From positions 1-41,214 of IMG/VR virus record IMGVR_UViG_3300025128_000105: 41,214 nt of DNA; one strand, given 5' to 3'. Source of the stretch: a virus. The translations under genes and the position numbers were made by a program. Below the pieces are notes generated by a model, which was not told where the DNA came from, ran no database searches, and saw only the letters and a list, made by a program, of their open reading frames with translations. Positions 5,937-15,791 of this stretch are shown here, piece after piece; the first letter of the stretch is position 1, and each line of letters starts with the position of its first letter.

Positions 5937-6100
5937 TAATTTAAAAAGAAGTTTTGAGCTTCTACCTCCTCTTTTAGTTCTTGTTGATATGTTGTATTTA
6001 ATTTTACAATAACACCATCTAAGTCTCTAGTCTGTGCTTCGGCTACAGTATAGTCATATTCTACACTAGGTCTTGTTAATACTTGCACTATTTTTGCCAT
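5936..6100 (-). CDS. Small hypothetical protein, 54 aa
   Basis: The frame starts at ATG 6098-6100, overlapping the upstream TAA, and ends at 5936, overlapping the next ATG. The product starts MAKIVQVLTRPSVEYDYTVA and ends in a short helix with EELKEEV-like charge, predicted LNTTYQQELKEEVEAQNFF. The two-sided TAATG coupling is the main support. Function unknown. Confidence 0.62.
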   Translation of the reverse strand: MAKIVQVLTRPSVEYDYTVAEAQTRDLDGVIVKLNTTYQQELKEEVEAQNFFLN

Positions 6101-8307
6101 TATCTTCTTCCATCTGGTTGTATATCTAATCTAAAAGTTCCAAGTTTCCAACTTTGACTTACCGCTGTGTTTTCTATTTTAAGAGCTATCGCTCTGGCTC
6201 TTGCCCTAGTATCAACTTTTAGTGTGCTTGATGTTATATCAAATGGTCCTAAAGATGAACTTGCTTGTGAGTCATTTGGAAAATTTCTTAATTGTAATGT
6301 AACTCTTGTAGTCCCTGTTTGTGTTATAAAATCAGGAATAAATCTTCTTATCTTCATTAAAAATTCACCATCTCCTCTTATATCAGCCACGCCTGTTGAC
6401 TGACCTGTGATTCCTCTTCTTTGACTTATGTCAAAATCTCCTGATGATATATTAGATAGTATAGCAGTTATCGTTCCATTTCTATTTTGGTCTGTTCCAA
6501 CTTCGTGTTCATAGTAAGCTGTTCTACCCTCAGTATTTCCAATAACATCAAAAGATGCATCATTACCAGCATCATAATCTAATGCATGTGGTTGACCAAA
6601 TACTGCAGAATCTTTCCACATAGTTCTATCTAAAGTGCCAACTGTCCATACTGGTCTTTGTGGAGATGAATCAAAATAATTATATGTAACACATTTATTA
6701 ACTACATCTGATGTAGACGATGGATAAAACCAAATTACTTCACCAAATAAGTTATTTAGTCCTGCGGACACCATTTGGTTACCAGATAATAAATTTATAT
6801 CATCATAAACAAAATCTTCAACTAAACATGGTAAAGATTCTAGTCTACCAGCAAATCTAAAAAAACCATTTTCTGACATCCAATAAGCTGCACCATCAAC
6901 TTCCACACATGCGTTCTGTCCAACTAATCCACAGTTAGTTCCTACTTGTGAGAAAGCAAACGTAAACGGCGAGCCAACAAAACGTTGTGTAAATAATGCA
7001 GTATCTGTCCAAACATAAATAGCATCTCTACCTCTAATAGCTCCCATGATCCGTGATCCATCGGCCAGTCTTTGTGTACCAGCTGTATTAGTTGCTGTTG
7101 GTGTGTATGTATTAATATCTTCTTGGTCCGAGAATCTAATAAACATATCGTCTTGTGTCGTAATATCTCCAATAGTTGTTTCTGTTCCAAAAAATACTAA
7201 GTGACGGTCTGGAGTAGATACAACCATGTGTCTTGATGCTGTTGGTGCACCTGTAATAATTGAAGCTCTTGTCGTAGTTGCGTTACCTAAACTAGAGTCC
7301 CAAGAAAAAACAGCACTATCATGTATTAAACAAATAGCTTTATCACCAAAGTTATCTATAGACCACATACCAGGGTCTAATGCTAAACCTTCCGCTGTTT
7401 GTTGGTTCCAAGCTCCAAAGTCACTTGTGTTTGTTACAGTTGCTCCAGTTGAGTGTGAGGCCCTTGTCGTTCCTCTTACTGCTCTTGTAATACCTGTTAA
7501 ATCATTACCTGAAACTCCTGTATATGATATTTCTTCAGTTCCTACTTTTATAAAATTTGTTCCGGTATCTGGAAAACCAACTGTGCTTGTTAACGTTATT
7601 GAAGTTCCTGAACTTCCAGTTCCAAATGCATCATTACCTAAAGCCCCGTTTAATGTTGTGGTAATCGCATTTGATGCTTGTCCACCCCATGATCCAAGAC
7701 CCCAGCCATATCCTTTTTCTTGAACCGGTGTACCAACAGGATAATAGTGTTGCACTCTAATACCTCCAGATGTTGTAGCACCAGACCCAGATTCATTAGA
7801 AGGCATAGTTATCGTTAATGTTGCTGATGTAGGAGTAGAAGTTACCATAAATTTTTTATCGTCAAAATCAGAAGATCCAAAATTAGATCCAGTTATTGTA
7901 GAAAAATTATCTAATAAAATAATGTCTCCTGTAGATATACCGTGTGAAGTGCTAAAAGTTATTGTAACTTCTGGTTGTCCATTGGTTGTGCTAAATGCAC
8001 TTGTAAGAGTTGTTGTAGTTTTGATGGGGTGTATGTCATAAAATACACCGCCTGAAAACGCATATAAAATACGATTAGTCCCTATTATAGCATATCTTCT
8101 TGATTGACTGTTAATAAAATGATGAAGACCTCTACCAGCACCAGTTAATTCATTTTCATTCACGTTTCCCAGCTGATTCCAGCCGCCTATTTTTTCAGGT
8201 ATACCGTATCTAAATCTAACATTATCACAGTCTATCCACTGCCCTTCGGCCCCTGTGGCTGTAATTTGTTTATTTATTCCTGGTTGAAATCCTATTTTTT
8301 GCAACAT
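6100..8307 (-). CDS. Tail hub/nozzle-like structural protein
   Basis: A 735-residue protein. The N-terminus (MLQKIGFQPGINKQITATGA) and the segment QWIDCDNVRFRYGIPEKIGG resemble packaged-DNA-stabilisation or tail-nozzle proteins of P22 gp10 type, which close the portal channel. An inserted module around 235-300 has GFPDTGTNFIKVGTEEISYTG and TGITRAVRGTTRASHSTGA, a small beta domain common in phage tail proteins. The rest looks like a beta-propeller with Trp/Gly-rich blades (for example AIYVWTDTALFTQRF). A Shine-Dalgarno AAGGAATG precedes the ATG. It lies just downstream of the oxygenase array. The gp10-like assignment is by eye and moderate. Confidence 0.7.
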   Translation of the reverse strand: MLQKIGFQPGINKQITATGAEGQWIDCDNVRFRYGIPEKIGGWNQLGNVNENELTGAGRGLHHFINSQSRRYAIIGTNRILYAFSGGVFYDIHPIKTTTTLTSAFSTTNGQPEVTITFSTSHGISTGDIILLDNFSTITGSNFGSSDFDDKKFMVTSTPTSATLTITMPSNESGSGATTSGGIRVQHYYPVGTPVQEKGYGWGLGSWGGQASNAITTTLNGALGNDAFGTGSSGTSITLTSTVGFPDTGTNFIKVGTEEISYTGVSGNDLTGITRAVRGTTRASHSTGATVTNTSDFGAWNQQTAEGLALDPGMWSIDNFGDKAICLIHDSAVFSWDSSLGNATTTRASIITGAPTASRHMVVSTPDRHLVFFGTETTIGDITTQDDMFIRFSDQEDINTYTPTATNTAGTQRLADGSRIMGAIRGRDAIYVWTDTALFTQRFVGSPFTFAFSQVGTNCGLVGQNACVEVDGAAYWMSENGFFRFAGRLESLPCLVEDFVYDDINLLSGNQMVSAGLNNLFGEVIWFYPSSTSDVVNKCVTYNYFDSSPQRPVWTVGTLDRTMWKDSAVFGQPHALDYDAGNDASFDVIGNTEGRTAYYEHEVGTDQNRNGTITAILSNISSGDFDISQRRGITGQSTGVADIRGDGEFLMKIRRFIPDFITQTGTTRVTLQLRNFPNDSQASSSLGPFDITSSTLKVDTRARARAIALKIENTAVSQSWKLGTFRLDIQPDGRR

Positions 8308-8394: not shown

Positions 8395-8607
8395 ATGAAA
8401 GACGTAAAAGACGATATTATTAAAGATTTAGAGTTAAAATTAGACATGGCTGAACAAGTAAAAGTGTCAGAGGTTCAGTTTAATACTGATCTTAAAGATC
8501 GAATAGAAAAGCTAGAATTGCATATCGAAACCTTGTTAAAGGTTAATGAATTCTTTAGACAAAAAGTATTAAAGTATAAGTCTATTGTTTCTAAGTTAAC
8601 GAAATAA
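8395..8607 (+). CDS. Small coiled-coil protein, possibly leaderless
   Basis: A 70-residue, highly charged helical protein starting MKDVKDDIIKDLELKLDMAE, with heptad-like Leu/Ile spacing over nearly its whole length (LELHIETLLKVNEFF) and no Cys or Trp. It is probably a dimeric coiled coil. It is the only likely plus-strand gene in the left 38 kb. Its 3' end overlaps the end of the last oxygenase gene by 17 nt tail to tail. Its promoter is strong by consensus and places the transcript start at the ATG. It could be a regulator or an early gene; the sequence alone does not say. Confidence 0.65.
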   Translation: MKDVKDDIIKDLELKLDMAEQVKVSEVQFNTDLKDRIEKLELHIETLLKVNEFFRQKVLKYKSIVSKLTK

Positions 8608-9112
8608 AATTATAATACCCTGTAATTAAATACCTAATTTTATTCTGAGGACAAGGTTGACCTCTGTGAGTGTGAGTAAAATAAGGTGGAAATAGAACAG
8701 CTTTACCTGCTTCTGACTCTATTGTTTCTCCACTAAAAAATTCTGTGCCACAATTATGGTCGCTTAAATAAAGTTGAAATACCATAACTCTTGTAGCATA
8801 GTCACCACAATGTTCTGAGTGCCATTTGTTAAAATAATCACCTGGTTTAAATTTTTTAAATCGTAAAGAAGTCATTGCCCATTTATCCTTTGTTAAGTTT
8901 AACTCTGGGTAATAAGAACAATACTTTTGAACCATATCTAAAGCTTCAGTAACAATTAATTTTTGAATTTTTTTATCTTTAATATCTTTAAAGCTATAAT
9001 TAGAGTCTTTATTGTTGTCTGTTATTAAACCCTTATCTAAAGCTTTTATTAAAGTTTTACATTTAGTCTTTGTAATAAATTGTTTTTTAACAGCTATAAA
9101 ATTTTTTTTCAT
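8591..9112 (-). CDS. 2OG-Fe(II) oxygenase-like protein A (HxE type)
   Basis: A 173-residue protein with the double-stranded beta-helix signature of prolyl-4-hydroxylase-like oxygenases. WHSEH gives probable metal ligands H98 and E100, THTHRG gives the distal His (H149), and KIRYLITGY gives the 2-oxoglutarate-binding Arg (R160). QLYLSDHNCGTEFF is the usual core strand with GGTEF-like turn. Members typically use Fe(II), O2 and 2-oxoglutarate to hydroxylate a protein, small molecule or nucleic acid; the substrate here is unknown. It is the last gene of an eight-gene array and a close paralogue of its neighbour at 9114-9632. GC is very low. Glu replaces the commoner Asp in the HxD motif. Confidence 0.85.
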   Translation of the reverse strand: MKKNFIAVKKQFITKTKCKTLIKALDKGLITDNNKDSNYSFKDIKDKKIQKLIVTEALDMVQKYCSYYPELNLTKDKWAMTSLRFKKFKPGDYFNKWHSEHCGDYATRVMVFQLYLSDHNCGTEFFSGETIESEAGKAVLFPPYFTHTHRGQPCPQNKIRYLITGYYNFISLT

Positions 9113-9113
9113 G

Positions 9114-9632
9114 TTATAAATTTAAAAAATTAACATACCCTGTTACTAAATATCTTGTTTTATTATCAGGGCACTTTTGTCCTCTATGTGTATGAGTAAA
9201 ATAAGATGGAAATATAACAACTTTTCCTTGTTCTGATTTTACAACTTTTTTATTATAAAACTCTGTGCCACATTTATGAGAGCTTAAATATAGTTGTATA
9301 TTTAAAACTCTAGTGGCATGATTATAACTATGTTCTGAGTGCCATTTTTCAAAATGTTTTCCTGGTTTAAATTTTTTAAATCTCATATGTGTTAATGACC
9401 ATTTGTTTGTAGTAAAATTAACTTCAGGAAATGCATTTATATATTCATTCCACAAAGGAAAAGTTTTGTTTTGTATTTGATTAAAAATAGGAGTGCCTTC
9501 TAAATCAAAACACTCATAACCATATTCTTGTTGTTCTGCTTTTTTCACTTTATCTTTCAGTTCTTTAATAAGTATATCACACTCTTCTTTAGATAAAAAG
9601 TTGTTTTTCTCAAATATAAAATTATTGTGCAT
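9114..9632 (-). CDS. 2OG-Fe(II) oxygenase-like protein B (HxE type)
   Basis: A 172-residue paralogue of protein A, with WHSEH (H98, E100), THTHRG (H149) and KTRYLVTGY (R160) at identical positions. The stretch RFKKFKPG just before the first ligand is identical in both. The N-terminal third differs more (YGYECFDLEGTPIFNQI), so the substrate pocket may differ. One base separates its stop from the next ATG, and its start overlaps the upstream gene by 11 nt. The pair looks like a fairly recent tandem duplication. The enzyme class is established by motif; substrate unknown. Confidence 0.85.
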   Translation of the reverse strand: MHNNFIFEKNNFLSKEECDILIKELKDKVKKAEQQEYGYECFDLEGTPIFNQIQNKTFPLWNEYINAFPEVNFTTNKWSLTHMRFKKFKPGKHFEKWHSEHSYNHATRVLNIQLYLSSHKCGTEFYNKKVVKSEQGKVVIFPSYFTHTHRGQKCPDNKTRYLVTGYVNFLNL

Positions 9633-10215
9633 AACTATACCAACCAGTGGTTATATATTTAATTTCTTTAGAAGAGGGAACACCTCTATGTGTAAATGTC
9701 CAATCAGCTGGCCAAATTAAAGTTAATCCTTTTTCAGGTTTAATTTTTAAATTTTGATAAAAAAATTCTGTTTCACCACCTTCTTTAATATCATTTAAAT
9801 AAGTCATAAAAACTAAATGCCTACGACAAGACTTTTCAGTAGCTCCTGATCTTTCATAATGATATTCATGAAATGCTCCTTTTTTAGGATACTTTTGAAT
9901 ATTCCAATTTTCATAAATACTCCATTGAGTATGCATCCAGTCTGCATAAACATATTTTTGTTTATATTTTTCTACAACTTTAGATAATGTTTTTAAATAC
10001 TCCTCTGGAACTTTATCTTTAATTACTGGTGATAAACTTAAATCTATAGAGTCTTTTATGTTCTTATACACGCCAACAACTCCTTTTCTATTACATGTGC
10101 CTCTAATAAGTTTTTTAGATTTATTGTGATATTTAATTAAACTATTACAAATTTTTTTGTCTATATACCACCCTGCGATAAAATTATTTTTTTTGTTGTT
10201 TTTAAATTCTTTCAC
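9622..10215 (-). CDS. 2OG-Fe(II) oxygenase-like protein C (HxE type)
   Basis: A 197-residue protein of the prolyl-4-hydroxylase-like group. GAFHEYHYERS gives candidate ligands H119 and E121, MTYLNDIKEGGETEFF is the classic core with the GGETEF turn, and FTHRGV gives the distal His (H176). Where an Arg normally binds the 2-oxoglutarate carboxylate it has Lys (K186 in EIKYITTGW). I recall similar proteins in marine cyanophages. It overlaps the upstream stop by 4 nt (ATGA). A Lys in place of the Arg may alter co-substrate binding but does not rule out activity. Substrate unknown. Confidence 0.85.
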   Translation of the reverse strand: MKEFKNNKKNNFIAGWYIDKKICNSLIKYHNKSKKLIRGTCNRKGVVGVYKNIKDSIDLSLSPVIKDKVPEEYLKTLSKVVEKYKQKYVYADWMHTQWSIYENWNIQKYPKKGAFHEYHYERSGATEKSCRRHLVFMTYLNDIKEGGETEFFYQNLKIKPEKGLTLIWPADWTFTHRGVPSSKEIKYITTGWYSYAQ

Positions 10216-10739
10216 GTTGCCTGCTTTGGATAAAAATTAAAACTTAATCCATATCTAGATTTATCAGTAGTATTTCTATTATTACCATGCATTAAAAAAC
10301 TAGAAAATAAAACAAAGTTACCCGGCTCAAATTCTAAAGTTTCGTTTATGTCACTAAAGTATAATGATTGACTGTGTTTATTTAATGCAATTGCACCTGA
10401 TACAAAAGCCGGTAAGTGTTGATGTTTTACAGTGTAATCAGAAAAAGATTGTTTAAACCCCCATGCATCTTGTAAAAGATATCGATTACATTCTTTAAAA
10501 TCAGTCGCATCTATTAAATCAAACATAGGTAATAATACCTTAATAAAGTTTTTATCATTTATAAAATATTGATACGAAGTCATGCCGCTAATAAGATTAG
10601 TTTGATAATTTTTGTTACTTTTTTCTTGTATTCCTTGTTCTATTTTATTTATAAAATATTTAGTGTCTAGTGACACCTTTCCCTTTACAAAAAAGTATTC
10701 TCTTTTCATTTCAGACTTTATTAATTTATTTATTTTCAT
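10212..10739 (-). CDS. 2OG-Fe(II) oxygenase-like protein D (HxH type)
   Basis: A 175-residue protein. The core reads VKHQHLPAFVSGAIALN, then EFEPGNFVLFSSFLMHGN and SRYGLSFNFYP. This follows the pattern of small putative 2OG-Fe(II) oxygenases in which H.H is followed by SGxxYL, then FPSxLxH and RxSxSFN. Candidate ligands are H106, H108 and H151, with R162 for 2-oxoglutarate. The Asp/Glu position of the classic HxD triad is His. Starts and stops of D, E and F interlock by ATGA. No substrate can be inferred; the triad needs a structure model to confirm. Confidence 0.75.
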   Translation of the reverse strand: MKINKLIKSEMKREYFFVKGKVSLDTKYFINKIEQGIQEKSNKNYQTNLISGMTSYQYFINDKNFIKVLLPMFDLIDATDFKECNRYLLQDAWGFKQSFSDYTVKHQHLPAFVSGAIALNKHSQSLYFSDINETLEFEPGNFVLFSSFLMHGNNRNTTDKSRYGLSFNFYPKQAT

Positions 10740-11383
10740 AACATTAAAAAATCACTATCTTTGTCAGAGATAGAAATTTCTTTTATAGAGGGCAATCCTA
10801 AATGTAACCGTCCGTCATATTTTAAACTTCTTTCGTTTTTTTTATTGTAATGTAAAAAAACTTGAACACAAGATTTCCCTTTAAAAGCTTCTCTCCAATG
10901 TTCTAAATCACAACCAGAATATATTAACATATCTCCTTGTTTTAAATCTATTTTAATTCCTTTTTTATTTTGTTTTTCCGTAGGATCTAAATATATAGGC
11001 CAAGAGTCTCCGCCTAAATTTAAAGTTGTAGATATTTCACAAGAAGGTCTATCTTTATGTCGTCTTAAAATATCTCCTTTTTTATACACACGACAATAAG
11101 AGTATGTTTCTATTAATTTTAATCCTGTTTGTTTTTCCATTAAAGGTTTTATATTTTTTAATAAAGTATCTGTAGCTGGGTCTCCATACATATTAAACGT
11201 TCCTTCTACTTGAGTATCTCCAATAGCACCATAAGTTGGATGTATTTTATTTCCATTGTTTGCTTTAGTAACAGTTTCAGCAACTTTTTTCTTAAGAATT
11301 AAATAGTCTTTTACAAAATCTGCTACTTTTGTATCTATTACTTTTTTTACAACTAAATATTTATTTTTTTTAAATTTATTCAC
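10736..11383 (-). CDS. 2OG-Fe(II) oxygenase-like protein E (HxD type)
   Basis: A 215-residue protein with RRHKDRPSCEISTTLNLGGD, giving canonical H109 and D111, then LKQGDMLIYSGCDLEHWRE with the distal His (H162) and VQVFLHYN closing the barrel. The Arg expected about ten residues after the distal His is not obvious (KGKSC instead), so 2-oxoglutarate may be held by a Lys. The segment ETYSYCRVYKKGDILRRH is the typical strand leading into the first ligand. A C-terminal extension of about 35 residues (LHLGLPSIKEISISDKDSD) is not shared by the others. Co-translated through ATGA overlaps at both ends. Confidence 0.82.
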   Translation of the reverse strand: MNKFKKNKYLVVKKVIDTKVADFVKDYLILKKKVAETVTKANNGNKIHPTYGAIGDTQVEGTFNMYGDPATDTLLKNIKPLMEKQTGLKLIETYSYCRVYKKGDILRRHKDRPSCEISTTLNLGGDSWPIYLDPTEKQNKKGIKIDLKQGDMLIYSGCDLEHWREAFKGKSCVQVFLHYNKKNERSLKYDGRLHLGLPSIKEISISDKDSDFLML

Positions 11384-11907
11384 GGTCTGCCCTTATCTAA
11401 TACTTCAAAATCTAAATTTAAAGTTTGTCTAATGCCCTTTGGTTGAGGGTAGGCTCCATGTAATATATGAACAGGCATAATTATTAAAGTTCCTTCTTCA
11501 GGTAAAAAATTATTACAGGTTATTTTATTACCGTCTTTTAAAAAATAATAAAATTCTCCTGATTGATGTAGATTATTTGTTGGAGGCATTTTTAAATATA
11601 AAACTGTAGCTAAATGGTTTGTTGGTTTATTGTGCCTGTGGACTAAATGATAATTATTTTCTTGGCCTATAACCGTCCATGCTGATAGTAAATTATATTG
11701 TTTATTATCTAATTTACAAAGTTCACTTTTAATTAAATTAATTACTTTTTTAAATTTAGATCTTTGATTAAATAAATCAAATTGTTTACAGTTAAAACCT
11801 CTGGTACTTTTTAGTGCTACATCTACTTCAATTCCTACAATATCTTTCATAATAAGTTTTATAGTGCTAATATCTATTTTAGTTTGTACTATCCAATCTT
11901 TATTCAT
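11380..11907 (-). CDS. 2OG-Fe(II) oxygenase-like protein F (HxH type)
   Basis: A 175-residue protein. Candidate ligands sit in YHLVHRHNKPTNHLATVLYL (H90, H92); GTLIIMPVHILHGAYP supplies the distal His (H150) and KGIRQTLNLDFE the Arg (R160). As in D and G, the second ligand position is His rather than Asp or Glu, while order and spacing match the double-stranded beta-helix family. The N-terminal 75 residues are helical and not similar to the neighbours. The start overlaps the upstream gene by 8 nt. Substrate unknown; class assignment moderate to good. Confidence 0.75.
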   Translation of the reverse strand: MNKDWIVQTKIDISTIKLIMKDIVGIEVDVALKSTRGFNCKQFDLFNQRSKFKKVINLIKSELCKLDNKQYNLLSAWTVIGQENNYHLVHRHNKPTNHLATVLYLKMPPTNNLHQSGEFYYFLKDGNKITCNNFLPEEGTLIIMPVHILHGAYPQPKGIRQTLNLDFEVLDKGRP

Positions 11908-12403
11908 AATCTGTTACTAAAGTATACCTTGGTTTTTTAATTTTTTCTGTAGGAAAAACTGCATCATGCACAATAGTGCCCTCAAAAATTAATATAGAAT
12001 TTTCGTGCCCTGGAATAATTATATCAACATTATTATCTACTAACCGTGTCCCTAAAGCATAATTATGATTACACACATAAAATATACTTGTGTATTTATT
12101 TTCTGGATGTTTGTGTAAAAATTGTTTTTGATTCTTAGTTACTTTTAAAGCCCAACATTTGTATAATTTATCTTTGCCGATATCTGTCATTATATCTGTT
12201 AATTTTTTAAAATATTTTTTCCAATGTGTGTCAGTAAATACTTTATGTAAGTTAGAAGTAGTTTGTTTACCTGATTTTAATTTATCAGAATGAGGATGTT
12301 TATTAAAATTTTTTACCAAATCTTTTTTTATTTTTTTAAAATCTTCTTCTGCCATAAAATTTTTAATATTAATATATTGATTATGATTCCAATTATTAAA
12401 CAT
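11900..12403 (-). CDS. 2OG-Fe(II) oxygenase-like protein G (HxH type)
   Basis: A 167-residue protein from ATG 12401-12403. An in-frame ATG at 12424 is also possible, but the chosen one follows the upstream stop directly (TAAAATG) and gives an N-terminus like the other members (MFNNWNHNQYINIKNF). FLHKHPENKYTSIFYV supplies H97 and H99, IVHDAVFP the distal His (H146), and KKPRYTLVTDYE the Arg (R159). SILIFEGTIVH resembles the strand before the distal His in this fold. It overlaps the next gene by 8 nt. Weakest of the eight by motif, but clearly of the same style. Confidence 0.7.
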   Translation of the reverse strand: MFNNWNHNQYINIKNFMAEEDFKKIKKDLVKNFNKHPHSDKLKSGKQTTSNLHKVFTDTHWKKYFKKLTDIMTDIGKDKLYKCWALKVTKNQKQFLHKHPENKYTSIFYVCNHNYALGTRLVDNNVDIIIPGHENSILIFEGTIVHDAVFPTEKIKKPRYTLVTDYE

Positions 12404-12404
12404 T

Positions 12405-13031
12405 TTATTTATATGGATACCCATACACCCACATTACCAAAGAATATCTTGTACCTTTAGTTACTGGTTTTACTTTATGCCATAAATAAGATGGAAATAC
12501 TATAATAGTGCCTCTAGTCCTAATTTCTTTAACTACAGTTTCAACATCAGATTTAGCCGAGTTTCTAAATTGAAAACAAAAGTCTCCACCTTCATAATCT
12601 TTTTTATCTGATAGACAAACAACTAAAGATAGTTTTCTTATTTTTCCTTTTGTTTTTTCTGATCCAAATTGTTTTCCATTTCCAACATCATTGTGCCAAG
12701 TGTAATGTTGGTTTTTTTTATATTTTGTAAATTGAATAGGTTCTGCCCAGTCTACTTGATGTTTCCACCCAGACATTTCATTAGCAGTATTAAGATATGG
12801 AAAAAGTAAATTATATAGCCATTGTTCGTCTATAAAAGAAACATAAGAATCTCTGTCTTTTTTTAAATTCTTTTTTTGTTTTTTATTTAAAGTTTTAAAT
12901 TTGTCTTGAGAAAAATTTCCAGTTCTCGCTGTTATTAATTTGGATTGTTGTCCTACTTTTATAATTTTATTACAAACTTTAGGCGTTAAAGCGCTAGCAA
13001 AATACCAATAAAGGTTTTCGTAATGAACCAT
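12405..13031 (-). CDS. 2OG-Fe(II) oxygenase-like protein H (canonical HxD)
   Basis: A 208-residue protein with the clearest prolyl-hydroxylase-like pattern: YTWHNDVG (H113, D115), LSLVVCLSDKKDYEGGDFCF (core strand with EGGDF turn), IIVFPSYLWHKVKPV (H185) and GTRYSLVMWVYG (R195). The start MVHYENLYWYFASALTP is typical of phage and bacterial PKHD-type hydroxylases, so I use ATG 13029-13031 rather than an upstream in-frame ATG at 13082. An AAAGAAAAGAAAG stretch precedes it. It is the first of the eight genes, 32 nt after a tail-associated gene. Fe(II)- and 2-oxoglutarate-dependent hydroxylation is the expected chemistry; target unknown. Confidence 0.88.
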   Translation of the reverse strand: MVHYENLYWYFASALTPKVCNKIIKVGQQSKLITARTGNFSQDKFKTLNKKQKKNLKKDRDSYVSFIDEQWLYNLLFPYLNTANEMSGWKHQVDWAEPIQFTKYKKNQHYTWHNDVGNGKQFGSEKTKGKIRKLSLVVCLSDKKDYEGGDFCFQFRNSAKSDVETVVKEIRTRGTIIVFPSYLWHKVKPVTKGTRYSLVMWVYGYPYK

Positions 13032-13063: not shown

Positions 13064-13531
13064 TTATTCTATTAAAATCCAAGTATTATTACTTGGATTC
13101 CAGTAATAATTTTGATTATCCTCTCTATTTAAATTTTCCCATCTTTGTTCAGCGTCATTCCATTCTGCAACATTTGCATAAACATCTTGTTCACTTCCGT
13201 CAGAATTAGTAAAAGTAGGGTTTCCTATTGTATTAGGTTTTGCAACAGGTGGAACCCATACATCATTTGTATCATCCCATGTCCAAGATTGAAAAGGTTG
13301 CATAGAAACAAATTTATTTTTATCTTCTTTCCAAACAGCTCCAATTGCTTGAACTCCTATTAAATCTTTATATTCGCCCTCACCAAATAATTTAACGCAA
13401 TGCTCTTGGGTGTCCATATCATCAATCATAAATATTTCACTACAAACTTTTAATTGCACACCTACATTAAAAGGATCTTGTTGTGACACAACTTTTGCTA
13501 CTTTTTTATAAATTTCAGATCCTCTTGACAT
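13064..13531 (-). CDS. Tail/virion-associated protein with Trp-rich repeats
   Basis: A 155-residue protein. The N-terminal part is helical with several Cys/Met (about 1-70). The C-terminal half holds three Trp-rich blocks of a W-x-W-(N/D) type: FQSWTWDDTNDVWVPPV, VAEWNDAEQRWENL and NYYWNPSNNTWILI. I recall this pattern from tail or host-recognition proteins of marine cyanophages and relatives; it probably forms repeated beta hairpins. It lies between the glycine-rich adhesin and the oxygenases, so a fibre-associated role is plausible. It is not an oxygenase: no H-x-D/E motif. Confidence 0.7.
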   Translation of the reverse strand: MSRGSEIYKKVAKVVSQQDPFNVGVQLKVCSEIFMIDDMDTQEHCVKLFGEGEYKDLIGVQAIGAVWKEDKNKFVSMQPFQSWTWDDTNDVWVPPVAKPNTIGNPTFTNSDGSEQDVYANVAEWNDAEQRWENLNREDNQNYYWNPSNNTWILIE

Positions 13532-13532
13532 A

Positions 13533-14402
13533 TTAAAAAACTATAGTTCCAGATACGTTAAATATTGCAAGTGTAGCTCCACCATCCGTTGCTGTTGAAT
13601 TTGATCCAGGTGATACTGTTAACGAAGTTCCTGTTGGATCTCTTAAAATAACATTACCAGTTCCTCCTGATCCGCCATCTCTTGCAGGTGATCCTCCCGG
13701 GCCGCCGCCTCCGCCGCCGCCTTGGCCGTTTCCGCCTGATTGAGTTTGACCATCACTTCGGCCACCAGCATTTCCTCCTCCGCCAGCGCCTCCACTTTTA
13801 ACACCAGATGCATTGGAACCTCCAGCTCCGCCGCCAGCTCTAGTTACAGACGATCCTGTAATTGAGTTTGCAGTTCCTGCTCCTCCTGGGCCACCATTTT
13901 GAGGGCCAGATCCGTTAGGTCCTACAGCGCCAGCTCCGCCGCCTCCGCCGCCAGAATTATTTCCGCCGCCGTTTCCGCCGTCATTACCTTCAGCAGGTGA
14001 AAAGCCTCCTGCGTTTCCTTCTCCGCCAGTACCGTTTAGAGCACCTCCGCCACCGGAGCCTCCAGGATTTCCATTAACACTAGGTGGTCCTCCACCTCCT
14101 CCCCCTGTAGAGAGAATAGTTCCTGCTTGTGAATTAAGTCCGTCTTGTCCTTTTGTTAAAGCAGGATCTGGAGAATCATTATCTCCGCCAGCTCCACCAG
14201 TTCCAACTGTAATAGTTGCTCCTGATTCTACTGTTACTTTAGTTCCTCCAGGAAAAGATGTTCTGTGACCGCCGCCGCCTCCGCCGCCGCCATCATCGAC
14301 CCCTCCGCCGCCGCCACCAGCGACTAATAAAAAATCAAAATCTAAAGTTTTTTTGGCATCTCCTCCGCCAAATCCTAATATTTTATATCCAAATGAACTC
14401 AC
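13533..14402 (-). CDS. Glycine-rich tail fibre adhesin
   Basis: A 289-residue protein. It starts MSSFGYKILGFGGGDAKK, followed by LDFDFLLVAGGGGGG and about 200 residues of glycine-dominated sequence with runs of 5-9 Gly and interspersed Asn, Ser and Pro (GGPGGAGT, GNPGGSGGGG, GGGGPGGSP). It ends with a short beta domain (VILRDPTGTSLTV...IFNVSGTIVF). Long glycine runs are known from polyglycine-II sandwich adhesins at phage fibre tips (the S16 gp38 type), which bind host surface receptors. GC is locally high because of glycine codons. Position next to the fibre gene fits a receptor-binding tip. Several Pro-Gly pairs are present. Confidence 0.8.
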   Translation of the reverse strand: MSSFGYKILGFGGGDAKKTLDFDFLLVAGGGGGGVDDGGGGGGGGHRTSFPGGTKVTVESGATITVGTGGAGGDNDSPDPALTKGQDGLNSQAGTILSTGGGGGGPPSVNGNPGGSGGGGALNGTGGEGNAGGFSPAEGNDGGNGGGNNSGGGGGGAGAVGPNGSGPQNGGPGGAGTANSITGSSVTRAGGGAGGSNASGVKSGGAGGGGNAGGRSDGQTQSGGNGQGGGGGGGPGGSPARDGGSGGTGNVILRDPTGTSLTVSPGSNSTATDGGATLAIFNVSGTIVF

Positions 14403-14414
14403 GTGTTTCTCCTA

Positions 14415-15791
14415 TTACGAGTCGTTAGCAGCACTTGTAGTAAAGAATAATTTAATACCTAATAGTTTTGCATCGGCTGTTAAACTATCTGCTGACACGT
14501 CTCTTGAAATTTGAAAAAATACATACTCATCTGCACCAGGTGAACCTGCAATAGTTACTGCTCCACTTTCTGCTGCAACTGCTAAATCGTTTGCTGTTCC
14601 ACTCATAGCTTTTGCTGTTGCAACAACTTGTGTTCCAAAAGCAGTATTTAAGTCTCCGTTATCAGCTAAAGCTACACCAGATAATCCCCATGCAGTGGTT
14701 CCAGTGTTTGTTGAGTTAGCTGTAAAAAATGCTTGAAAAGTTACTGTGCCTGCATTCCATGATTTAGGAAAGGCAACAGCAAACTGTGCAAATTCATCTG
14801 AGTCTTTATCGAAATCTAAAGACTTTAATTCTGGACCATTTGATAATTCTGTTTGAGCAAGATCTGCACAACCGCTTGTAGTGTTAGGGTACATAGCAGT
14901 TGCTGGAACCCAAATAGTTTCTTTACCTGCAATCTTAATTGCACCAGTAGCGTCCGAAGCGTCTACTGCTTTAGCAATTCCAGTTCCATTAGGAGCTATA
15001 GTTATATCTCCATTAGCTGCATCTGTAATTGTAATTGTACCTGAGTTAGTTCCTGAGTTTGTGTCTAAGACAAGGTCGTGTGCACCACTTGTTGTTAAAG
15101 TCGCTGCAGCAGCACCTGTACCTATTCTAGTTTCTCCTGAACCTTTTGGTTTAATATGAACATCAACGTTAGTTTCTCCACTTGCGCCTATGATTGGTGG
15201 GTTTCCAGTTGCTGCGTTAGTTATTTCTAATTCATTAACTGCTGAAGATGTTGTTTGAAATATTACTTGTTCGTTTCCATTTGCATCTGCAATAAAACCT
15301 GCGTCTGCAATTTTTGGAGCTGTTAAAGTTTTGTTTGTTAAAGTATCTGTTGATGCAGCAGTTATAAAACCTGTATCATCAATATCTGGGTTAGTTCCAT
15401 CGTTAGCAGTTGCATAAACTAATTTAACCGCTCCTGGAGCAACAGTTACACTGTCTCCTGAACCTGATACATATTTAAATACTACGTTCTGTGATCCACT
15501 TGTTGAATTTTTTAAAATATAAAAATCTTGAACATCGATAGGTATAGTAACATTTCTTGATCCTGTAAGTGATCCTGTAAATTCTATAACTCTGTGTGCA
15601 AGAGTTGCACCTGTTCCACCATCAGTTACTGCAAGATCTGTATCTCCAGAATCAGAAACTGCTTGTGTTGTGAAACCACCAGCTATTTGCTCTATAAGTT
15701 GTAAATTTGTATTAGTTTTATTTCCCCATTGACCAGCATTTTCACCGGTCGCTTGAAGTTCTATACCTAAGGGCGTAAATGTTGATGCCAT
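14415..15791 (-). CDS. Tail fibre / receptor-binding structural protein
   Basis: A 458-residue protein. The N-terminus (FTPLGIELQATGENAGQWG then NKTNTNLQLIEQIAGGF) is a widespread phage fibre anchor segment. The middle has repeated beta strands with TDTLTNKTLTAPKIADAGFI and GSGETRIGTGAA, typical of fibre shafts. The C-terminal 170 residues (from IWVPATAMYPNTTSGCADLA) form a separate Ala/Thr-rich beta domain, probably a tip or decoration domain. No intramolecular chaperone or enzymatic motif is seen. It lies immediately upstream of the glycine-rich adhesin. Confidence 0.82.
   Translation of the reverse strand: MASTFTPLGIELQATGENAGQWGNKTNTNLQLIEQIAGGFTTQAVSDSGDTDLAVTDGGTGATLAHRVIEFTGSLTGSRNVTIPIDVQDFYILKNSTSGSQNVVFKYVSGSGDSVTVAPGAVKLVYATANDGTNPDIDDTGFITAASTDTLTNKTLTAPKIADAGFIADANGNEQVIFQTTSSAVNELEITNAATGNPPIIGASGETNVDVHIKPKGSGETRIGTGAAAATLTTSGAHDLVLDTNSGTNSGTITITDAANGDITIAPNGTGIAKAVDASDATGAIKIAGKETIWVPATAMYPNTTSGCADLAQTELSNGPELKSLDFDKDSDEFAQFAVAFPKSWNAGTVTFQAFFTANSTNTGTTAWGLSGVALADNGDLNTAFGTQVVATAKAMSGTANDLAVAAESGAVTIAGSPGADEYVFFQISRDVSADSLTADAKLLGIKLFFTTSAANDS

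Follow-up and report, generated by a model that had tools for sequence, protein, structure and literature searches.

Why would a phage carry eight consecutive minus-strand genes for what look like small oxygenases, at 8591-13031 of the 41,214-nt stretch of viral DNA analysed here (the window), and on what would their products act? The open reading frames, the profile searches and the gene order kept in relatives bear out the run itself, whose genes we call o1 to o8 in gene order; "MAHFA-family" is likewise a name given here, taken from the N-terminus in relatives.

14415..15791, minus strand: tail-fibre-like gene, upstream edge of the slot; phrog_31104 (no named function) over the N-terminal 139 aa
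13533..14402, minus strand: Gly-rich protein (37% Gly), presumed tail tip, candidate substrate; PF21722 Gly_rich_2, E 2.3e-12
13064..13531, minus strand: small MAHFA-family protein between the Gly-rich gene and the array, co-transferred with both
12405..13031, minus strand: o1, 2OG-Fe(II) oxygenase; PF13640 E 3.7e-16; phrog_61 1.2e-34; motif HND..H..R
11900..12424, minus strand: o2, 2OG-Fe(II) oxygenase; phrog_274 ("DNA endonuclease V"); HPE..H..R; prolyl-hydroxylase fold in the model
11380..11907, minus strand: o3, 2OG oxygenase; PF13759 5e-5; phrog_81 5.8e-15; HRH..H..R
10736..11383, minus strand: o4, prolyl-hydroxylase-like 2OG-Fe(II) oxygenase; phrog_2954 ("ferrochelatase") 4.6e-51; HKD..H
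10212..10739, minus strand: o5, 2OG oxygenase of phrog_81 type; PF13759 1.4e-6, above cut-off; HQH..H..R
9622..10215, minus strand: o6, 2OG-Fe(II) oxygenase; PF13640 3.1e-10; phrog_61 1e-38; HYE..H..K; GTG start
9114..9632, minus strand: o7, 2OG-Fe(II) oxygenase; PF13640 2.9e-6; HSE..H..R; close paralogue of o8
8591..9112, minus strand: o8, 2OG-Fe(II) oxygenase; phrog_61 4.3e-24; PF13640 2.1e-5, just under cut-off; HSE..H..R; close paralogue of o7
6100..8307, minus strand: "stabilisation"/virion structural protein, downstream edge of the slot; phrog_3287 4.3e-94

The array is encoded among late structural genes. Its genes are spaced by −20, −8, −4, −4, −4, −11 and +1 nt from o1 to o8, the 20-nt overlap of o1 and o2 exceeding the maximum of 11 nt given in the preliminary description; a longer TTG start of o1 is possible at 13082. 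All eight proteins matched PHROGs of the 2OG-Fe(II) superfamily, and o1, o2, o3 and o5 to o8 matched PF13640 or PF13759 (E 4e-16 to 5e-3), with o1, o5, o6 and o7 exceeding the curated Pfam cut-off and some other matches lying below it; o4 had no match in the single-sequence Pfam scan. Given these E-values, two confident predicted folds (o4 and o2, below) and the gene order conserved in relatives, the array is not a product of chance. By their profiles all eight proteins are 2OG-Fe(II) oxygenase-like, with predicted catalytic activity, and the earlier reading of eight such oxygenases in a late operon was right, the profiles agreeing with both models. In the seven array genes having a relative for comparison, dN/dS was 0.05-0.48, substitution ratios that show purifying selection acting on them. 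The GC content of the array is 26.5%, against ~37% in the rest of the window.

Taking HxD/E...H as the 2-His-1-carboxylate iron site, six proteins carry it, namely o1 (H113-x-D115/H185), o2 (H106-x-E108/H153), o4 (H109-x-D111/H162), o6 (H119-x-E121/H176) and both o7 and o8 (H98-x-E100/H149). HxH...H is found in o3 (H90-x-H92/H150) and o5 (H106-x-H108/H151), and the middle position in their family is His in 58/79 and Asp in 17/79. The residue expected to hold the 2OG carboxylate, an Arg or Lys ~10-13 positions after the distal His, is Arg in o1, o2, o3, o5, o7 and o8 and Lys in o6; o4 lacks either at the usual place, having instead an invariant R at His+2, Q at +12 and H at +16. GTEF-like turns are present in o6, o7 and o8. 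The only close paralogues in the array are o6, o7 and o8 (o7 and o8 share 48% identity over 172 aa); since the other pairs were barely detectable by BLASTP, tandem duplication was rejected as the main origin of the array save for these three.

The run is not a peculiarity of this phage. Across 80 relatives, between 0 and 11 oxygenase genes occupy the slot bounded by the tail-fibre gene and the "stabilisation" gene, with superfamily members in 76 loci. Eight genes in a row had been taken as unusual, a uniqueness rejected by sister contigs with 8-11 and by the cultured phage S-SM1, in which 9 of 11 consecutive genes encode oxygenases. Rows of oxygenases are common in ocean phages, partly hidden under wrong names; many members were overlooked because they are labelled "ferrochelatase", "DNA endonuclease V", "DNA endonuclease" or "hypothetical". 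Most arrays of relatives contain o1, and o6 has relatives in 434 phage records. Beyond this phage, o3 turned up in just three contigs, all near-identical to it (three IMG/VR loci). In the relative L088, o3 is cleanly absent at the start repeat ATGAATAAA, and it is apparently a recent insertion. Even close relatives differ freely in the number and composition of these genes, and o3 can be missing, so the earlier suggestion of a dedicated hydroxylation pathway, in the sense of steps taken one after another, finds no support.

To what, then, is the array tied? Identity to relative L086 is 92-100% over the segment from ~14.9 to 8.6 kb and 65-86% in the flanks; to L088 it is mostly 85-98% over the same block and near 60% in the flanks. 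In both comparisons identity steps near 14.9 kb, placing the C-terminal third of the tail-fibre-like gene inside the exchanged block, and falls at the 5′ end of the "stabilisation" gene. These identity profiles show the array, the Gly-rich gene and the MAHFA neighbour to have moved between phages as one block. Array similarity also tracked Gly-rich protein similarity, with partial Mantel r of 0.53 (49 loci), 0.63 (33 dereplicated loci) and 0.35 (28 loci with Gly >25%) at p 0.001-0.006, a signal that persisted without glycines. Tracking was best for the array-proximal C-terminus of the Gly-rich protein and less or absent for its N-terminus, so that some of the correlation may stem from nothing more than physical linkage. 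Among 53 loci compared, oxygenases were present in 44/44 with a Gly-rich tip, and the four oxygenase-free loci have lectin-like tip genes (Laminin_G_3, SPRY, DUF7483).

The trio of Gly-rich gene, MAHFA gene and array recurs in three lineages: HTVC023P-type phages, HTVC033P (HMO-2011-type) and the T4-like HTVC008M, S-RSM4 and S-SM1. An iterated MAHFA profile converged on array-adjacent homologues in HTVC023P, 023Pt_psg01, HTVC008M, S-RSM4, S-SM1 and HTVC033P; several small phages also carry the protein. A strict need for the Gly-rich tip was rejected: no Gly-rich protein accompanies the 3-5 oxygenases that L029, L037, L039 and HTVC027P encode on the opposite strand, and the Gly-rich gene of P-HM1 has no array next to it. 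The case for a strict need of the MAHFA-family protein is weak too, with 37 of the 80 relatives, some being fragments, lacking a detectable copy. Gly content correlated with oxygenase number (raw rho 0.42) but not significantly in independent-pair tests on the stabilisation-protein tree, and we therefore do not use it as proof. Pro-Gly and Asn-Gly pairs were not enriched in the tips, leaving no collagen-like target motif visible in the Gly-rich protein.

This linkage could also arise if the slot were a recombination hot spot for accessory metabolic genes, with oxygenases acting on host metabolites or drawing down 2OG and having no link to the tip. The rapid change in gene number (0-11) and an exchanged block that takes in physically adjacent genes would fit; a 2OG/nitrogen-signalling role has been proposed for cyanophages (PMC3037559), and Wittmers et al. 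2022 (PMC9599517) class these oxygenases as auxiliary metabolic genes. However, the contents of the slot are not random, given one superfamily in 76/80 loci; lectin-tip relatives lack oxygenases; and in the partial Mantel test array similarity did not follow that of the stabilisation protein, just as close a neighbour. We consider a hot spot unlikely, though it deserves real weight.

Structure models point to what the enzymes may do. The o4 model (pLDDT 93.5) matched P4H, PHD2 and SnoN folds at Z 15-17, and the o2 model (pLDDT 87.7) matched P. putida P4H (4j25, Z 17.1) and 2rg4 (Z 16.8), their closest solved folds being mostly protein hydroxylases, including P. putida P4H in its EF-Tu complex and PHD2. 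The likeness to prolyl 4-hydroxylases is a fold resemblance of predicted models. The lack of a double-stranded beta helix, or a scatter of the proteins among unrelated families, had been named as evidence against the oxygenase reading; the o4 and o2 models have the fold and the profiles show no such scatter. The iron site H109, D111 and H162 is invariant in 61/61 o4 relatives; in the o2 family H106 and H153 are invariant (42/42), position 108 is D/E in 35/42 and R166 is kept in 41/42. Both families are homologous to PF13759-type oxygenases in profile-profile comparison, the o4 family matching the o5-type family at hhalign E 4.6e-8. None of 61 o4-family members matched a ferrochelatase family in Pfam-A (E up to 0.1), the best recurring match being PF13532, a 2OG oxygenase family (4/61 members, weak), and ferrochelatase chains were missing from the 50 fold matches listed for o4, an absence that alone is no test. 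Neither o2 (E up to 1) nor S-SM1 gp054, annotated denV (E up to 0.1), matched the Pfam family of T4 endonuclease V, the pyrimidine-dimer glycosylase, nor was endonuclease V among the fold matches listed for o2; gp054 matched the o2-family profile at 1.8e-45. The "ferrochelatase" of the o4 family and the "endonuclease V" of the o2 family are therefore very probably 2OG oxygenases, as predicted from profiles and models. We found no earlier correction of the "ferrochelatase" name in the open literature searched.

That the array travels with the tail tip suggests chemical modification of the tip. Our best explanation, to which we give an even chance, is that the eight proteins are protein hydroxylases acting on the receptor-binding tip, as a modular set that can be enlarged. 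Small prolyl-hydroxylase-like 2OG-Fe(II) oxygenases would hydroxylate the phage's own receptor-binding tail tip post-translationally, the target being the adjacent Gly-rich protein and possibly the fibre C-terminus or the MAHFA-family protein, and adsorption would be affected. The enzymes would differ in the site or the type of tip that they suit; they are exchanged together with the presumed tip as one cassette, and single enzymes are gained or lost at the overlapping start/stop junctions. The "set of specificities" raised in the preliminary description is partly supported, fitting a set that is swapped with the tip and in which only o6, o7 and o8 are close paralogues; the specificities of the individual enzymes are presumed. 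More tentatively, and with the balance against it, a combinatorial, horizontally traded set of 2 to 11 hydroxylases, several with a three-His instead of a 2-His-1-carboxylate iron site, may be devoted to editing the tip of marine phages and so diversify host range enzymatically, above the genetic layer.

Alternatively, the enzymes might modify the host receptor (lipid A, a sugar or an outer-membrane protein) late in infection, preventing re-adsorption of progeny or sister phages to debris; enzymes that alter the receptor of a tip would therefore travel with that tip. On this view, too, the enzymes would be co-transferred with the receptor-binding module and their sets would be specific to the tip, and the late position of the arrays fits, but the best structural matches are mostly protein hydroxylases and we noted no sign of export or membrane association in these small proteins, making it quite unlikely. 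Oxidation of phage DNA bases (TET/JBP-like hypermodification) or AlkB-like repair of alkylated DNA is improbable: PDB sequence matches of the o4 family are Tet-like dioxygenases (best a Naegleria protein, a weak E of 0.05), the o2-family matches include a DNA 6mA demethylase (E 0.009) and PMC9599517 mentions other DNA hypermodification genes in pelagiphages, yet such E-values are borderline, both folds group with P4H/PHD2, and the genes belong to the tail module, varying along with the tip. That some members truly are ferrochelatase or DNA endonuclease V, so that the array mixes iron handling and repair with oxygenases, is scarcely credible: the PHROG and GenBank names say so, and o4 has matches in 156 phage records, with ferrochelatase as the name of most of those listed, but the prolyl-hydroxylase fold models, the invariant iron ligands, the lack of a Pfam ferrochelatase match in 61 members and the PF13759-type homology all speak against it.

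Labels on abundant marine phage genes are thereby corrected, and with the o4 family relabelled, the iron/heme and seasonal interpretations published for "ferrochelatase" (PMC9599517, PMC11561400) are undermined. A vague auxiliary-metabolic-gene story becomes testable as hydroxylated tail-tip residues in cultured phages. If tip modification proves true, phage-host specificity in the ocean would include a widespread layer, open to exchange, in which enzymes modify receptor-binding proteins.

Among characterised enzymes, P. putida prolyl-4-hydroxylase (4j25, 4iw3) and human PHD2 resemble o4 and o2 in predicted fold (Z ~15-17) and share their His-x-Asp/Glu...His iron site, but differ in sequence (~9-16% identity) and from o4 in the usual Arg/Lys position. 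The PF13759 structures 2rg4 (Oceanicola) and 3bvc (Roseovarius) resemble o3, o5 and most of the variable array members, down to the HxH motif, and the o5-family profile matched 2rg4 and 3bvc at ~1e-19 and prolyl hydroxylases more weakly; unlike o3 and o5, these are single uncharacterised bacterial proteins outside phage arrays. The closest published counterpart is the HTVC023P-type pelagiphages of Wittmers et al. 2022 (PMC9599517), the same phage group, for which eight non-orthologous 2OG-Fe(II) families are described as colocated "although not adjacent" and "ferrochelatase", always next to a 2OG gene, is treated as a separate partner function. The earlier impression that a run of eight had not been described is only partly right, given these colocated families and the published 2OG genes of cyanomyoviruses. 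Here, by contrast, the genes are contiguous, the "ferrochelatase" is itself a predicted 2OG oxygenase and the array travels between phages along with the Gly-rich tip, whereas the passages concerned draw no link to the tail tip. For T4-like cyanophages, Sullivan et al. 2010 (PMC3037559) tabulated up to five 2OG genes, a count that misses members named DNA endonuclease, endonuclease V, ferrochelatase or hypothetical. S-RSM4, S-SM1 and HTVC008M differ in being larger myoviruses, but in them, too, runs of the same families lie next to tail-fibre, Gly-rich and MAHFA-family genes.

The window is a 41,214-base IMG/VR virus record that covers a marine phage's structural half, with terminase, portal, major head protein, tail genes and a 'stabilisation' protein all on the minus strand. 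Since its stabilisation protein is 46-47% identical to those of 023Pt_psg01 and the pelagiphages HTVC027P and HTVC023P, the phage is assigned, by sequence, to the HTVC023P-like group. The eight ORFs announced in the preliminary description (o1 to o8, together the array) lie at the positions reported there, within a slot between the tail-fibre-like and stabilisation genes:

14415-15791, minus strand: tail-fibre-like gene
13533-14402, minus strand: Gly-rich gene (PF21722), encoding the presumed tail tip
13064-13531, minus strand: small MAHFA-family protein, named for the N-terminus of its relatives
12405-13031, minus strand: oxygenase o1
11900-12424, minus strand: oxygenase o2
11380-11907, minus strand: oxygenase o3
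10736-11383, minus strand: oxygenase o4
10212-10739, minus strand: oxygenase o5
9622-10215, minus strand: oxygenase o6
9114-9632, minus strand: oxygenase o7
8591-9112, minus strand: oxygenase o8
8395-8607, plus strand: 70-aa coiled-coil-like ORF
6100-8307, minus strand: stabilisation gene

From o1 to o7, successive genes overlap by 20, 8, 4, 4, 4 and 11 nt, and a 1-nt gap separates o7 from o8; the limit of 11 nt proposed earlier thus holds for six junctions and fails at o1/o2. Some 35 loci retain the opposite-strand ORF that sits at the array edge, after o8 and before the stabilisation gene, with identities of 43-100%; it is probably a genuine small gene running against the late operon.

All eight proteins fall into one 2OG-Fe(II) superfamily, as first proposed from motifs, with PF13640 or PF13759 matches in seven and superfamily PHROG matches in all eight. 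Structure prediction, the check suggested at that stage, was carried out for the two least certain members, o4 (pLDDT 93.5) and o2 (pLDDT 87.7), and both models adopted prolyl-hydroxylase-like folds with Z scores of 15-17 to P. putida prolyl-4-hydroxylase, PHD2 and the epimerase SnoN. At the iron site, H109, D111 and H162 of o4 are invariant across 61 relatives, H106, D/E108, H153 and R166 are conserved in the o2 family, and profile-profile comparison linked both families to PF13759-type members. In o3 and o5, HxH replaces HxD; the corresponding column of their PF13759-type family is His in 58/79 and Asp in 17/79, and 2rg4 and 3bvc share the HxH motif, which may form a 3-His metal centre. The PHROG of o4 carries the name ferrochelatase and the best PHROG of o2 that of DNA endonuclease V. 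For the proteins of PHROG 274, 2297 and 2954 and for S-SM1 gp053, gp054, gp060 and gp061 (L188), these two database names, like 'DNA endonuclease', appear to be wrong; the proposed correction is limited to these proteins and leaves genuine denV or ferrochelatase genes elsewhere unaffected.

Most array members are not recent duplicates, with clear paralogy by BLASTP confined to o6 and the o7/o8 pair (48% identical). Purifying selection acts on the seven genes that could be compared with a relative (dN/dS 0.05-0.48). The sister contig L088 lacks o3, its o2-o4 junction reading ATTATGAATAAATTT against ATTATGAATAAAGAT...GTGAATAAATTT at the o3 junctions of the window; one gene has been cleanly gained or lost at this start-codon repeat. 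Of the two, gain is the simpler explanation, because o3 was seen in only three other, near-identical contigs.

Such arrays, which the preliminary description had suggested seeking in other contigs, are widespread. Among 80 relatives found via the stabilisation protein, between 0 and 11 oxygenases occupy the slot upstream of its gene: at least two in 76 relatives and at least eight, not always strictly contiguous, in eight. In a representative set of 79 proteins (o5 of the window and 78 remote members from the relatives' loci), PF13759 matched 58 and phrog_81 matched 59. With profiles built in this analysis, cultured or complete phages yielded nine oxygenases among eleven consecutive genes in S-SM1, runs of nine in S-RSM4 and six in HTVC008M, five in 023Pt_psg01 and four plus one in HTVC023P, several run members being named DNA endonuclease, DNA endonuclease V, ferrochelatase or hypothetical protein.

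The array travels with the presumed tip. Compared with L086, the window contains one block of 92-100% DNA identity that begins in the C-terminal third of the fibre gene (about 14.9 kb), takes in the Gly-rich gene, 13064-13531 and o1 to o8, and ends where the stabilisation gene starts, with flanks mostly at 65-86%; for L088, identity is mostly 85-98% within this block and about 60% in the flanks. Across 49 loci, the more alike two Gly-rich proteins are, the more alike are their arrays (rho 0.52; partial Mantel r 0.53, p 0.001; r 0.63 after dereplication; r 0.35, p 0.006 for strongly Gly-rich tips), a relation that does not extend to the stabilisation protein, which flanks the array at its opposite end (r −0.01, p 0.53). 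Part of the correlation with the Gly-rich protein may come from linkage alone, because most of the signal lies in the C-terminus of the tip, the part closest to the array. Oxygenases are present in 44/44 loci with a Gly-rich tip, while in the four oxygenase-free loci (L066, L071, L080 and L082) lectin-like genes (Laminin_G_3, SPRY and DUF7483, checked in L066, L080 and L082) replace both Gly-rich gene and array. The Gly-rich protein, MAHFA-family protein and array recur together in three phage lineages: HTVC023P-type, HMO-2011-type HTVC033P (PMC9038755), and T4-like HTVC008M, S-RSM4 and S-SM1.

Exceptions exist. L029, L037, L039 and HTVC027P (gp72-gp74, L165:7295-8956) carry opposite-strand arrays and no Gly-rich protein, with a tail-collar-domain gene in its place in L037 (Pfam-confirmed) and HTVC027P (annotated), apparently a separate arrangement; P-HM1 is a further exception to the pairing. 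Oxygenase number was not significantly related to Gly content after phylogenetic control. In L046 (6043-8289), which has two oxygenases and no separate Gly-rich gene, a 748-aa fibre protein carries the Gly-rich domain as a C-terminal fusion (PF21722 at 501-714).

The best account is that the array would be a hydroxylase set dedicated to the tip, encoded among the late genes and exchanged between phages together with it. Family PF21722, position among tail genes and variability suggest that the Gly-rich protein forms the receptor-binding tip. It is the candidate substrate, although no substrate motif stands out in it. The main rival, in which the enzymes would modify the host receptor, also accounts for co-transfer. 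The simplest rival makes the slot a neutral hot spot where accessory genes gather. Superfamily membership, fold, iron site, selection, co-transfer and recurrence are established by the data, and catalytic activity, substrate and biological effect are inferred from them.

Some of these genes have been noticed before. In HTVC023P-type phages, Wittmers et al. 2022 (PMC9599517) described eight non-orthologous 2OG families lying close together and treated ferrochelatase as their partner; the study could not pursue where these families came from. For cyanophages, Sullivan et al. 2010 (PMC3037559) listed as many as five 2OG genes in a genome, together with a 'ferrochelatase domain' protein, and a 2024 time series (PMC11561400) reported joint enrichment of 2OG oxygenases and ferrochelatases in seasonal phages. 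Three points, for which we found no earlier statement in the open-access literature searched, are new: the ferrochelatase (o4) and endonuclease V (o2) families are very probably themselves 2OG oxygenases, the oxygenase genes are contiguous and number up to 11 in one slot, and both their co-variation and their joint transfer link them to the presumed tail tip.
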